A stretch of 64,000 nucleotides of DNA. It comes from Pseudomonas eutrophicaquae (GTDB lineage Bacteria; Pseudomonadota; Gammaproteobacteria; Pseudomonadales; Pseudomonadaceae). Under the pieces are notes generated by a model that ran no database searches, had not been told where the DNA came from, and was given only the letters and a program-made list of their open reading frames with translations. The stretch is from the NCBI RefSeq assembly GCF_023544715.1, contig NZ_JAMJEZ010000005.1, positions 1-64,000 of the forward strand. The letters run 5' to 3'. The translations under genes and the position numbers were made by a program. This document shows, in pieces, positions 15,918 through 31,453 of this stretch; positions within the stretch are counted from its first letter, which is position 1, and every line of letters begins with the position of its first letter.

Positions 15918-15945
15918 ATCTTAGGCAATGAGTTGTACAAGTCAA
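15918..15945 (-). promoter_or_regulatory. Sigma-70 promoter of the MerR-photolyase operon
   Basis: On the minus strand TTGACT (15945-15940) and TAAGAT (15923-15918) are 16 bases apart. The operator TTGTACAA (15933-15940) fills the spacer next to the -35 element and a second TGTACA (15952-15957) lies just upstream. A bound regulator would therefore block or distort the promoter. Confidence 0.6.
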
Positions 15946-15968
15946 TCGCGATGTACAGGTTTTGTATT
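15933..15968. promoter_or_regulatory. TGTACA operator cluster A (regulator/photolyase operon)
   Basis: Exact TGTACA copies start at 15934 and 15952 (18 bp apart), and a relaxed copy TGTATT starts at 15963 (11 bp further). The first is extended to the perfect palindrome TTGTACAA. The spacings recur at the other clusters in this window. These are the likely binding sites of the LitR-type MerR regulators. Confidence 0.7.
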
Positions 15969-15979
15969 GCCTTTTGAGC

Positions 15980-16195
15980 CTATCGCCAGCCCATCTTCCA
16001 GCGCTGATCGTCCTTGAGCTCGCGCCAGTCCAGGCGCCAGCTGCGCTTGCTGAGCACTGCCTGCAGCTCGACGGCCAGCACGGTGCCTTCCTCGTCCTTG
16101 TACAGCTCGGTGACCAGAAAGTGCTTCTCGCGCTGGCGCGGCTCGATGGCCGTCCATTTGGAAAGCAGCAGCTTGGCCGGGTTGAGGCGGTGCAT
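15980..16195 (-). CDS. TIGR02450-type Trp-rich small protein
   Basis: The 71-residue protein begins MHRLNPAKLLLSKWTAIEP and continues with REKHFLVTELYKDEEGTV, AVLSKRSWRLDWRELKD and a WKMGWR end, the pattern of the conserved tryptophan-containing TIGR02450 family. No function is known. It starts 4 bases after the stop of the renalase-like flavoprotein gene and is evidently co-transcribed with it, downstream of TGTACA cluster B. Its stop is close to the divergent cluster A region, so it also marks the edge of the light-stress block. Confidence 0.85.
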   Translation of the reverse strand: MHRLNPAKLLLSKWTAIEPRQREKHFLVTELYKDEEGTVLAVELQAVLSKRSWRLDWRELKDDQRWKMGWR

Positions 16196-16199
16196 GGTC

Positions 16200-17183
16200 T
16201 CAGCCCTGTGCCAGCAGCTGCTGCGCGGCAGCCAAGCCGCTGAGCCAGGCGCCCTCGACCCGCCCGGACAGGCACCAGTCGCCACAGGCATACAGGCCCT
16301 GCGCCGGATCGGCCAGGGTGCCCCAGGCGTGATCCTGCGCCGGGCGGGCATACAGCCAGCGGTGTGCGATGCTGAAGAAGGCCTCTGGCAGGCGGGCACC
16401 CAGCACTTCGGCAAAGGCGGTTTGCAGCGTTGCAATGACCGCCTCAGCCGGCAGGTCCAGATGCTGGCGGGTCCAGTCGCTGGAGGCGTGCAGCACCCAG
16501 CTGTCGTGGCTACTTTCGCGCCCCGGTTTGCGGGCGTTGCGGGCGATCCAGTCGAGGGGGCTGTCCTTGACGAAGCAGCCCTCAAGCGGGGTGGGCAGCG
16601 CTTCTTCAAAGGCCAGCGCCACAGCCCAGACCGGGTCCATGGCCGCGCTGGCGGCGCGACTGGCCAGCTCAGGTGCGGCGCTGAGCAGCGAGGCGGCCTG
16701 CGGGGCGGGCGCCGCGACGATCACCGCGCTGAACGGGCCATGGATGCGCCCATCCGCATCGGCCAGATGCCAGTGCTGTTCACCGCGGAACACCTCGGTG
16801 ATCCGGCAGGAGAAGGTCGCCGGCAGCTCGCCGAGCAGGTGACGGGTCAGGGCGCTCATGCGCGGCACGCTGACATAGCGCGCTTGATCGTCCGGCGAGT
16901 GGCTGAGGACCCCGGCGTGGCTGCGATACAGCGCCGGGTTCCAGGTCTCGACCCAGCCGGCGGCCTGCCACTGCGCGAGTGCGGCGATGAACTGCGGATC
17001 GCGGGCGGTGAAGTACTGCGCACCCAGATCCAGCGCGCCGACCTCGCTGCGCTTGCTGGACATGCGCCCGCCGCTGCCGCGGCTCTTGTCGAACAAATGA
17101 ACGCGGCGACCCGCCGCAACCAGCGCATGGGCCGCCGACAGGCCGGCCATGCCGCTGCCGATGATGGCGATAGGAGTATCCAT
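16200..17183 (-). CDS. Renalase-like NAD(P)/FAD-dependent oxidoreductase
   Basis: The 327-residue flavoprotein has the FAD motif [21 protein letters not shown], then [18 protein letters not shown] and a C-terminal [24 protein letters not shown]. This combination is typical of bacterial renalase-like proteins, some of which oxidise mis-reduced isomers of NAD(P)H; the substrate here is not proven. It is transcribed away from the epimerase-hemH pair. The 168-bp divergent gap holds three TGTACA boxes, so it is probably part of the light regulon. Confidence 0.88.
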
Positions 17184-17216
17184 GAAAGTACCTCTTGGAG
17201 AGGATTACAGGCTAAT

Positions 17217-17255
17217 CTGTACAAGCAACTTGTACAAGTCGGTTGAGTTGTACAA
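17217..17255. promoter_or_regulatory. TGTACA operator cluster B (divergent flavoprotein/epimerase promoters)
   Basis: TGTACA starts at 17218, 17231 and 17249; the last two are full TTGTACAA palindromes 18 bp apart. A further TGTACA at 17334-17339 directly precedes the ribosome-binding site of the epimerase gene. A possible rightward promoter, TTGAGT (17243-17248) with TCCAAT (17266-17271), overlaps the third box. The cluster serves the divergent flavoprotein and epimerase-hemH units. Confidence 0.7.
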
Positions 17256-17351
17256 ATCTATCTGTTCCAATCTCGAGTGACACGCGCGGCGTGTCCGCGG
17301 AGCGCCGAAGATCCGGCATCCGCCTTGCCAATCTGTACAGGAGAGACGGCG

Positions 17352-29927: not shown

Positions 29928-30353
29928 TCACTCCGGGCGGCGCTTGGGCAGCTCACACTGCCCATCACGGCAGCGCCGGGCGCCATCGGGGTGGGGCAGC
30001 CATTCCAGGTGCGGGCGCAGCAGGCAGAACAATCGGTAGCCCGGCTCCATCAGGCGGCGCAGCCAGGGCCACTGCAGCAGTCGCGCCAGGCCAAGCCCTG
30101 CGGCCAGCCAGCTCCAGTAGGTGGCATCCACCCCGGAAACCCAGTGACCGTCGGCAAAGCGCGCGTGCAGGCGATCCTGCAGCTCGCGATGGCGAAAGCC
30201 CAGTGCGGCGGCATCAAAGTCGGCGGCGCTGATATCGACCAACTGCAGGCGGGCCGGGTCGGCGCGGCGGCTCAGCAGGCGGATTTCTCGGGCACACAAC
30301 GGGCAATCGCCATCGTAATAGAGGGTCAGCGGCCAGGCGGGCGTGGTGGACAT
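29928..30353 (-). CDS. DCC-family (DUF393) thiol-disulfide oxidoreductase-like protein
   Basis: The 141-residue protein has the defining motif LYYDGDCPLCAREIRLLSRR at about residues 11-30, with the DCPLC thioredoxin-like CxxC. DCC proteins are thought to act in thiol-disulfide exchange but few have been studied. The C-terminal half contains W-rich hydrophobic sequence (YWSWLAAGLGLARLLQWPWL). The ATG lies 18 bases from the TGTATA box at 30371, and it is divergent from the second LitR-type regulator gene, so it probably responds to the same regulators. Confidence 0.85.
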   Translation of the reverse strand: MSTTPAWPLTLYYDGDCPLCAREIRLLSRRADPARLQLVDISAADFDAAALGFRHRELQDRLHARFADGHWVSGVDATYWSWLAAGLGLARLLQWPWLRRLMEPGYRLFCLLRPHLEWLPHPDGARRCRDGQCELPKRRPE

Positions 30354-30370
30354 GGCAACGATCTCGCAGT

Positions 30371-30387
30371 TGTATAAGCCTTGTACA
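30371..30387. promoter_or_regulatory. TGTACA operator pair D (DCC gene/second regulator)
   Basis: TGTATA (30371-30376) and TGTACA (30382-30387) are 11 bp apart in the 97-bp divergent gap. The second box is part of TTGTACAA and abuts the proposed -35 element of the regulator gene. Confidence 0.65.
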
Positions 30388-30388
30388 A

Positions 30389-30417
30389 TTTAAGCGCTTC
30401 GGAGGCTAGGGTACAAT
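30389..30417 (+). promoter_or_regulatory. Promoter of the second LitR-type regulator gene
   Basis: A good -10 element TACAAT (30412-30417) is preceded at 17 bases by TTTAAG, a weak -35. The weak -35 next to an operator fits a promoter under regulator control. Transcription would start near 30424, leaving a 27-base leader. Confidence 0.45.
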
Positions 30418-30450
30418 GCCGCGACCGATTTCCCTGCGCGACGCCCCCAC

Positions 30451-31401
30451 ATGTCCGATCTGCCCGTAACCCCGCCCCGCATCGAGCCTTCTCCTCAGGA
30501 CGAGCTGTACCCGATCCGCGAGGTGGTGCGCCTGACCGGCGTCAACCCGGTCACCCTGCGTGCCTGGGAGCGTCGTTACGGGCTGATTCGCCCGACCCGT
30601 ACCGACAGTGGCCACCGGCTGTACTCGCAGGCAGAAATCGAGGCGGTGCGCAGCATCCTGGCCTGGATCGAGCGCGGCGTGGCGGTCAGCAAGGTGGGCA
30701 AGCTGCTCGAGCGTAATGCGCAGGTGCGCAGCGCCGCTGCTACCGACAGCGAGCCGGTGACGGCGCATGAGCATGCCGAGTGGCAGCAGCGGCTGGAGGC
30801 GGCGGTCAGCGCCTTTGACGACCTGCAGCTGGAGCGCCTGTATGGGCAGATTTTCTCTACCTACCCGCTGGCTGTAGCCTTCCAGGACGTGCTGCTGCCG
30901 GTCTGGCAGACGCTGCTGCTGCGCCAGGATGGTTTCGGGCAGACCAGTGAGTGGCTGTTCTTTGATGCCTTCTTGCGGGCGCGGGTCCTGCAGCGCCTGC
31001 TGCTGGCCGGAGCGCCCGGCAGCGAGCGCATCCTGCTGGCGGCCTTGCCGGGGCATCGCCATGAGCTGGAGCTGCTGGTCTGTGGCCTGCTGCTCTGCGG
31101 GGCGGAGCTGAATGTCACGCCGCTGAGCCTTGGGCAGCCGTTCGATGAGCTGGCGCTGGTCTGCGAGCGGCGCCGGCCAGCGGCACTGGTGCTGTTCTCC
31201 AACAGCCCGCCCGATCCTGATCTGGCGCGCCGTCTGGAGCGGCTGGGGCTCAGCCTGAGCTGCCCGCTGGCGCTGGCCGGCGACATCGCCGATCTGGCCG
31301 AGGACGCTCTGCAAGGTACGCCGATTGCCTGCCTTGGCAACGATGGTCGCTTGATGCCGCGGCGCCTGCGCCAGTTCCTGAATGGGCATCTGGACACCTG
31401 A
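30451..31401 (+). CDS. Second MerR-family LitR-like regulator without cobalamin motif
   Basis: The 316-residue protein has a MerR DNA-binding domain at about residues 22-92 (IREVVRLTGVNPVTLRAWERRYGL, GHRLYSQAEIEAVRSIL). It is almost the same in the recognition helix as the regulator at 14809, so both probably bind the same TGTACA sites. The C-terminal region keeps the LitR length but has no DxHxxG B12 motif. The two proteins differ a good deal outside the DNA-binding domain and are not a recent duplication. It is encoded between the DCC gene and a LOV photoreceptor gene, matching the class II LitR plus LOV arrangement known from P. putida. Confidence 0.88.
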   Translation: MSDLPVTPPRIEPSPQDELYPIREVVRLTGVNPVTLRAWERRYGLIRPTRTDSGHRLYSQAEIEAVRSILAWIERGVAVSKVGKLLERNAQVRSAAATDSEPVTAHEHAEWQQRLEAAVSAFDDLQLERLYGQIFSTYPLAVAFQDVLLPVWQTLLLRQDGFGQTSEWLFFDAFLRARVLQRLLLAGAPGSERILLAALPGHRHELELLVCGLLLCGAELNVTPLSLGQPFDELALVCERRRPAALVLFSNSPPDPDLARRLERLGLSLSCPLALAGDIADLAEDALQGTPIACLGNDGRLMPRRLRQFLNGHLDT

Positions 31402-31436
31402 TACGGCAATAGCGCTTGCCATGCCGCCGAAATTCT

Positions 31437-31453
31437 TGTACAAAAGCTGTACA
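31437..31453 (+). promoter_or_regulatory. TGTACA operator pair E (small-RNA promoter)
   Basis: TGTACA starts at 31437 and 31448, 11 bp apart, the same geometry as pair D. A perfect -10 element TATAAT follows at 31467-31472, so the second box covers the -35 position. No good -35 hexamer is visible, as expected for an activated or regulator-dependent promoter. Confidence 0.65.

Follow-up and report, generated by a model that had tools for sequence, protein, structure and literature searches.

A window of 64,000 nucleotides from Pseudomonas eutrophicaquae (the whole stretch of DNA analysed here, positions 1 to 64,000 of contig NZ_JAMJEZ010000005.1) contains genes for two LitR-type regulators, litR1 and litR2, a gene for a short LOV photoreceptor and repeated TGTACA boxes in five intergenic stretches. 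Judging from sequence comparison, the TGTACA arrays are probably operators of class II LitR proteins, and the array at 31437-31470, directly after litR2, probably drives a trans-acting small RNA that is controlled by LitR and LOV. The sites with their rarity, the conserved array, a covarying RNA and the two genomic contexts of this RNA are observed directly. New are the conserved structured RNA and the three-box operator, whereas the regulon itself is known.

In addition, we lean slightly towards the view that this small-RNA family constitutes the RNA arm of the LitR/short-LOV switch, either as the 3' end of a dehydrogenase mRNA or as a free-standing RNA. Within this view, the coding sequence would have disappeared from several lineages (or been acquired by others), and promoter, operator and 3' RNA would have been kept.

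A conserved RNA element in two genomic contexts

In the genus comparison, which comprised nine genomes including that of the window (G000; 2.55 Mb in 57 contigs), the stretch following 31437 was found by blastn in five, each time directly 3' of litR2. The 19-nt block CTGCGCACTCCGGCAGCCG is invariant in all five carriers. For the family comparison, which comprised 399 genomes, a first covariance model (R1) was made from the transcript, with the operator excluded, and a second model (R2) was rebuilt from 55 rows; R2 was trained on R1 matches, and both models favour TGCGC. R1 matched in 59 genomes and R2 in 61, with two doubtful R1 genomes lost and G073, G080, G094 and G360 gained. In the first three of these the RNA ends at most 25 bp from the end of a convergent LOV gene and lies 124-184 bp after litR2, a layout like that of the window. 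The window copy itself gives a covariance-model match at 31481-31556 with 78.6 bits, the window being part of the training set, and the z-score of its fold is -2.26. A single copy per genome is present in 60 of the 61 carriers; G155 has two and thereby both forms of the locus described below.

The 65 model matches were reduced to 58 by dropping three matches that were the antisense of hairpins already listed, the loci L013 and L023 (duplicates of G159 and G067), and L167 and L173, two matches judged to be false positives that R2 did not recover. Together with five elements added later, this gives a total of 63 copies. The alignment used for the structure (A6) contains 55 of the 58 rows, three repeats being left out, and 50 of its rows are distinct. 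TGCGC precedes the stem in all 55 rows, which were anchored on TGCGC, and 95.3% of the cells of the 12-pair stem are standard pairs. Compensatory changes on both sides were found at 7 of the 12 stem pairs; the earlier five-sequence alignment alone contained none. The covariation score, the percentage paired and the number of doubly changed cells were reached by none of 500 shuffles. The element thus has a conserved and covarying structure with a terminal U-run, as for a small RNA with an intrinsic terminator. An earlier reading of this DNA from its letters alone (the sequence-only reading) had proposed a probable small RNA here, which was a good guess.

The RNA family apparently has not been described so far. 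An Rfam scan of the window from 12000 to 34000 gave no family matching the element, and on eight relatives the only Rfam match was ErsA with 24.2 bits at a cut-off of 50. No description of the RNA was found in Rfam or in the literature covered, which extended neither to most subscription papers nor to the supplementary tables of PMC9758184, and literature on PA0506, on light-regulated small RNAs and on LitR in combination with small RNAs yielded nothing on this RNA. ErsA (Pseudomon-1, RF01719) resembles the element in that it is a Pseudomonas small RNA with a C-rich loop in the terminator hairpin, but it occupies a separate locus in G001, G002 and G005, which carry both RNAs. Homology to ErsA was rejected because of this separate locus and because R1 scores at most 11 bits on 13 ErsA loci. 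ErsA gave no match in G000 or G008, and the RF01719 model gave none in the window from 12000 to 34000 at E <= 1.

Two contexts can be distinguished among the 63 copies: 34 immediately follow an acyl-CoA dehydrogenase gene, of which they form the 3' end, and 29 do not. A litR2 relative is found directly upstream in 37 copies, in detail in 21 of the 29 stand-alone ones and in 16 of the 34 dehydrogenase-linked ones, where it lies upstream of the dehydrogenase. A three-box array with at most two mismatches in 18 positions lies upstream of 47 copies (32/34 dehydrogenase-linked, 15/29 others), and 33 of the arrays are perfect. Arrays were searched for in the 250 bp preceding the start of the dehydrogenase gene or, for the other copies, in the 250 bp preceding the core. 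At the same threshold no array was found in 630 shuffles, which permute two-base blocks and are a rough control, nor in the better control, 1246 windows taken elsewhere in these loci (623 on both strands), the best control showing three mismatches. For each of the 14 stand-alone copies without a three-box array, between two and four exact boxes were counted within 160 bp, as compared with 0.18 expected, and in 13 of them the boxes span 29-31 bp with differing inner spacings. In the two dehydrogenase-linked exceptions, L142 and L145, boxes can be seen by eye, out of register. In G236 and G279 array and core flank a shrunken remnant with a dehydrogenase-like end.

As operator and core bracket the acyl-CoA dehydrogenase gene in other Pseudomonadaceae, the core there is the 3' end of that mRNA. 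Dehydrogenase matches in the nine genus genomes show at most 56% identity, whereas the linked dehydrogenases of other genomes reach 81-100%. The linked gene thus appears to be absent from all nine; the RNA nevertheless stands alone in five of them. The retention of promoter, operator and 3' RNA without the coding sequence suggests that the RNA is a selected product of the locus.

Short LOV relatives were found at E <= 1e-45 in 308 of the 399 family genomes, including all 61 carriers of the RNA as compared with 247 of the 338 others (Fisher p 5.7e-8, uncorrected for kinship). The converse does not hold, since R2 matches nothing in 247 of the 308 genomes with LOV; G275, G277 and G320, also without a match, have three short LOV genes each. 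In a scan of 36 named Pseudomonas loci and one locus from a metagenome-assembled genome, from which the distant litR2 match L049 was left out, the RNA lies within 3 kb of a litR2 relative only in L012, L013 and L023, of which L013 is from P. cuatrocienegasensis CIP 109853. In L051 and L054 (G001 and G008) a gene for a methyl-accepting chemotaxis protein (MCP) follows the RNA instead of the LOV gene, which lies a few kb further.

The main rival to a regulatory RNA is that the core merely terminates the transcript of the dehydrogenase gene or of litR2 and has no function as RNA. Indeed, hairpin and U-run are those of a textbook terminator, the 34 linked copies begin shortly after the dehydrogenase stop codon, and the rest of the transcript is barely alike among stand-alone copies. 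However, TGCGC stands before the stem in every row of the TGCGC-anchored alignment and the stem can be aligned across genera, whereas ordinary terminators are not expected to have one fixed sequence or to occur once per genome. In addition, core and operator are retained where the intervening gene is absent. We consider the terminator explanation unlikely, although it deserves to be taken seriously.

Three-box operators and the rarity of exact pairs

The sequence-only reading had listed eleven TGTACA copies, and a direct position check confirmed all of them (15934, 15952, 17218, 17231, 17249, 17334, 29783, 29912, 30382, 31437 and 31448) as exact; the 18- and 11-bp spacings that it gave are correct as well. 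Its statement that the copies lie mostly within TTGTACAA is true for just six of the eleven (15934, 17231, 17249, 29783, 30382, 31437). Among its near-matches, 29894 (TGTACG) and 30371 (TGTATA) hold with one mismatch each, whereas 15963 (TGTATT) is weaker with two mismatches to TGTACA; on the minus strand it reads AATACA, one mismatch from TRTACA. The whole window contains 19 copies of TGTACA, as compared with 2.63 on average in 100 dinucleotide-preserving shuffles of the window; the richest shuffle had 7, and none reached 19. The remaining eight copies lie outside the five stretches (2920, 8022, 13273, 15567, 16099, 22343, 36637, 37412).

At the RNA and dehydrogenase promoters the operator has the general form TRTACA-N5-TRTACA-N11-TGTAYA. 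The array at 31437 is the sole perfect three-box array in the window, and its box pair is kept in all five genus members carrying the RNA. An array of the litR1 type is present at the same place after DUF2389 in G002 (one mismatch), G001 and G005 (two each) and G008 (three), and its first box is degenerate in the window and in these four genomes alike. About 50 bp beyond this array the four relatives have a second N12 pair without the first box. Between array and litR1 they contain about 1.1 kb that is lacking in the window (L068, L069, L071 and L072, from G005, G001, G002 and G008, respectively) and that perhaps holds a gene like P. mendocina PME6650. Sites with two boxes are those before litR2 (11 bp) and those at 17231, at folM and on contig C22 (all N12). 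The pair before litR2 is also found in G002, G005, G008 and L012/L013, and in G001 it reads TGTACA-N5-TGTACG.

At the RNA promoter, both spacings are parts of one site. The suggestion of the sequence-only reading that the two spacings separate two regulator configurations is thereby mostly contradicted, since a single array combines an 11-bp with a 17-bp step. It is also undercut by the promoter after DUF2389, where the pair is of 18 bp in the window, G001, G002, G005 and G008 and of 11 bp in G003, G004, G006 and G007; as the type of pair varies among genus genomes, the spacings follow neither genes nor regulators simply. The same two observations speak against the more specific explanation that the 11-bp and 18-bp spacings are two operator types for LitR1 and LitR2 as distinct regulators. 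Two LitR paralogs are indeed present and 11-bp pairs without box 3 precede litR2. Moreover, N12 pairs without the first box occur at 17231, at 29894, on C22 and in the second pairs of the relatives, so that two types of site are possible. On balance we regard this assignment as doubtful, somewhat more so than the terminator explanation.

A TTGC is present at -21 or -22 of box 1 in 35 of the 47 arrays printed, four of the 47 (L120, L125, L149, L158) differing in this listing from the arrays scored for the three-box count. TTGC is a possible -35 and TATAAT an alternative -10 element; with both as candidates the RNA would start near 31449 or near 31479.

Pairs were also searched genome-wide, with the reversed motif as control. 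The exact pair TRTACA-N12-TGTAYA occurs at three places in G000 (15934, 17231 and contig C22; control 0), which means that the published consensus T(G/A)TACA-N12-TGTA(C/T)A is present at three places, two of them in the window. With one mismatch allowed, TGTACA-N12-TGTACA was found at seven places in G000, three in the five stretches and four elsewhere (control 0); for TGTACA-N5-TGTACA there were four places, half of them in the five stretches and half elsewhere (control 1). Exact TRTACA-N5-TRTACA pairs occur at 14 distinct places in the nine genus genomes (control 0), 13 of which are in litR1, litR2 or RNA loci and one on contig C55 of G000. From these searches with near-zero controls it follows that exact pairs are concentrated in these loci; pairs with one mismatch are less specific for them. 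The regulon proposed by the sequence-only reading was, in its own terms, open to refutation by such pairs being common throughout the genome; exact pairs proved to be rare outside these loci, and for exact pairs the proposal withstood this test.

Three of the places elsewhere in G000 are worth describing. On contig C22 (79586-79609, L001), an exact TGTACA-N12-TGTACA is located some 120 bp upstream of the ATG of a gene for a PAS + MCP chemoreceptor, a possibly light-controlled receptor that lies outside the window. On contig C54 (69272-69295, L007), TGTACG-N12-TGTACA stands directly before a small open reading frame (ORF) followed by a gene that we take to be exonuclease/GIY-YIG-like, and this gene set is possibly a light-linked repair unit. 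On contig C55 (110767-110783, L188), TATACA-N5-TATACA lies ahead of a chalcone-isomerase-like and DUF3833 gene pair.

Proposed function and origin of the probable small RNA

In the explanation we favour, array-bound LitR would obstruct RNA polymerase in the dark, and in blue light the lit neighbouring short LOV protein would free the array of LitR, whereupon the RNA would be made. The RNA driven by the operator at 31437-31470 would be about 75-105 nt long and would end at 31553. Its 51-nt core, consisting of CTGCGCA, a hairpin with a CU-rich loop and a U-run, would act in trans by base pairing, with CUGCGCA and the CU-rich loop as the likely pairing regions. In the dehydrogenase-linked form the core may be cut from the mRNA as a small RNA derived from the 3' untranslated region (3'UTR). 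Transcription, light control, processing and regulatory function of the RNA are all predictions from its sequence and surroundings.

3'UTR-derived small RNAs such as CpxQ are known in bacteria. In 34 of the 63 copies the element is similar to these, being a short RNA at the 3' end of an mRNA and closing with a hairpin terminator. It differs in that the same core is also found without an mRNA behind the same operator, and its processing is predicted only.

Several points weigh against the LitR/LOV-controlled small RNA. A covarying stem would be expected of a plain terminator too, seven doubly changed pairs were reached by 14 of 500 shuffles and the 15 further pair types by 161 of 500, and R2 relies on R1 matches, both models being biased towards TGCGC. 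R2 has no match in 338 of the 399 family genomes, 247 of them having LOV, and the RNA is absent from four of the nine genus genomes; with so many LOV genomes lacking it, the system can do without the RNA. Furthermore, the statistic for co-occurrence with LOV ignores kinship, some LitR sites lack the first or the third box, and the assignment of the -10 and -35 elements is ambiguous.

Two further explanations are highly improbable. The element could be the gene for a very small light-induced protein, as a 15-codon ORF, MAAVRHSAHSGSRFP, covers the core in the window copy; however, in the 27 stand-alone copies examined (of 29), a simple motif test gave no core-covering ORF with a ribosome-binding site and the peptides are unlike one another, and the changes track stem pairing. 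The core could also be a dispersed DNA repeat of the REP (repetitive extragenic palindromic) type that landed by chance near LitR operators, as it is a palindrome beside differing genes, but it is single in all carriers except G155 with its two copies. A leader of the LOV gene was rejected as well, since that gene is convergent in the window and the next gene in G001 and G008 encodes an MCP.

If the favoured explanation is true, the LitR/LOV-controlled small RNA would add a post-transcriptional layer to the blue-light responses of non-phototrophs, and with the three-box operator the published consensus would grow beyond its two boxes. Related genomes that have the locus in either form, containing or lacking the coding sequence, would then represent a natural test of how a 3'UTR RNA becomes an independent small-RNA gene.

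Regulators, neighbouring genes and known systems

Table 1. Coordinates of the features in the window
Feature	Position	Strand	Remarks
Predicted stand-alone small RNA	31479..31553	+	start inferred (~31449 or ~31479)
Conserved RNA core	31503..31553	+	CTGCGCA, 10-12 bp stem, CU-rich loop, U-run terminator
Three-box LitR-type operator	31437..31470	+	TGTACA-AAAGC-TGTACA-N11-TGTATA; 0/18 mismatches; 11 + 17 bp steps
Probable promoter	31416..31472	+	TTGC at -21 from box 1; TATAAT 31467-31472 overlaps box 3
litR1 operator (after DUF2389)	15934..15968	-	AATACA-N5-TGTACA-N12-TGTACA; degenerate box 1, 1/18 mismatches
Two-box operator	30371..30387		TGTATA-N5-TGTACA; 11 bp; between DCC gene and litR2
Four TGTACA boxes	17218..17339		between FAD oxidoreductase (-) and epimerase-hemH (+), divergent; N12 pair 17231/17249
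Boxes upstream of folM (-)	29783..29917		29783, plus TGTACG-N12-TGTACA at 29894/29912
litR1, class II LitR	14809..15753	-	Pfam MerR_1 + PF02607 (B12-binding_2 remnant)
litR2, MerR-type class II LitR	30451..31401	+	Pfam MerR_1/MerR only
Short LOV photoreceptor	31648..32106	-	Pfam PAS domains only, 152 aa from ATG
Light operon after litR1	8307..14800	-	phrB, SnoaL-like, SDR, FAD oxidoreductase, DUF1365, CMAS/ufaM-like, DUF2878
DCC-family gene	29928-30353	-	in unit 28366..30353
folM-like SDR	28958-29668	-	in unit 28366..30353
folE	28366-28935	-	in unit 28366..30353
SDR, short-chain dehydrogenase/reductase.

According to Pfam, both LitR proteins are of the MerR type without a complete B12-binding module; in LitR1 only MerR_1 and B12-binding_2 were found and the B12-binding domain is absent. 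The short LOV gene is convergent with litR2 and the RNA. Its translation has no effector domain and contains DCRFLQ, which we take to be the LOV adduct-cysteine motif. On the minus strand the gene order is DUF2389, litR1, phrB, SnoaL-like, SDR, FAD oxidoreductase, DUF1365, CMAS/ufaM-like and DUF2878. The names phrB, folM and folE, as well as hemH in the epimerase-hemH pair, are our own presumptive assignments. Putative sites accompany both the phrB-ufaM and the folM-folE units of the window, and the epimerase-hemH and DCC units are candidate targets by their sites alone.

A closely similar system is known from P. mendocina, as described in the parts of PMC9758184 drawn on here. There, PmlR2 represses in the dark and blue-lit PmSB-LOV removes it from the DNA; the LitR site is TGTACA-N12-TGTACA with the consensus T(G/A)TACA-N12-TGTA(C/T)A, a site before folM is reported, the cluster pmlR2-PME15565-pmSB-LOV is conserved, and PplR1-3 with PpSB-LOV are the counterpart in P. 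putida (PMC9758184). The window resembles the PmlR1/PmlR2-PmSB-LOV system in class II LitR, short LOV protein, consensus, phrB/ufaM operon and folM-folE. In detail, the position of litR2 matches that of pmlR2, the order phrB, SDR, FAD oxidoreductase, ufaM is the locus-number order PME6650-PME6610, the folM site resembles that of P. mendocina, and the two N12 pairs about 50 bp apart in the relatives resemble Sites 1 and 2 of P6650 (PMC9758184). By this analogy the regulon of the window would respond to light. The sequence-only reading had claimed a blue-light regulon, and the LitR pair, LOV, target genes and operator do fit the published Pseudomonas system; as gene set and operator match it, however, the claim is mostly a rediscovery in a new genome. 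In contrast to the window, neither a small RNA nor an 11-bp first box is described in the parts of PMC9758184 mentioned above. PME15565 may be the dehydrogenase seen in relatives here.

The operator of class I CarH/LitR proteins consists of 11-bp direct repeats, nnnnTnnACAn (PMC9304148, in the part drawn on here). Boxes 1 and 2 of the window array are similar in being 11 bp apart and fitting TnnACA, but the second step here is 17 or 18 bp and not 11. Three or four tandem 11-bp repeats of the CarH type were thus not found here, the steps being 11 and then 17 or 18 bp. A further difference from class I CarH is the lack of a B12-binding domain in either LitR of the window (Pfam).

Finally, between the regions discussed above, a match resembling the Mn2+ riboswitch RF00080 was found at 23232-23406 on the minus strand (42.1 bits, slightly under the cut-off of 45). 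The ORF after it resembles what is presumably a UPF0016/Gdt1-type manganese exporter.

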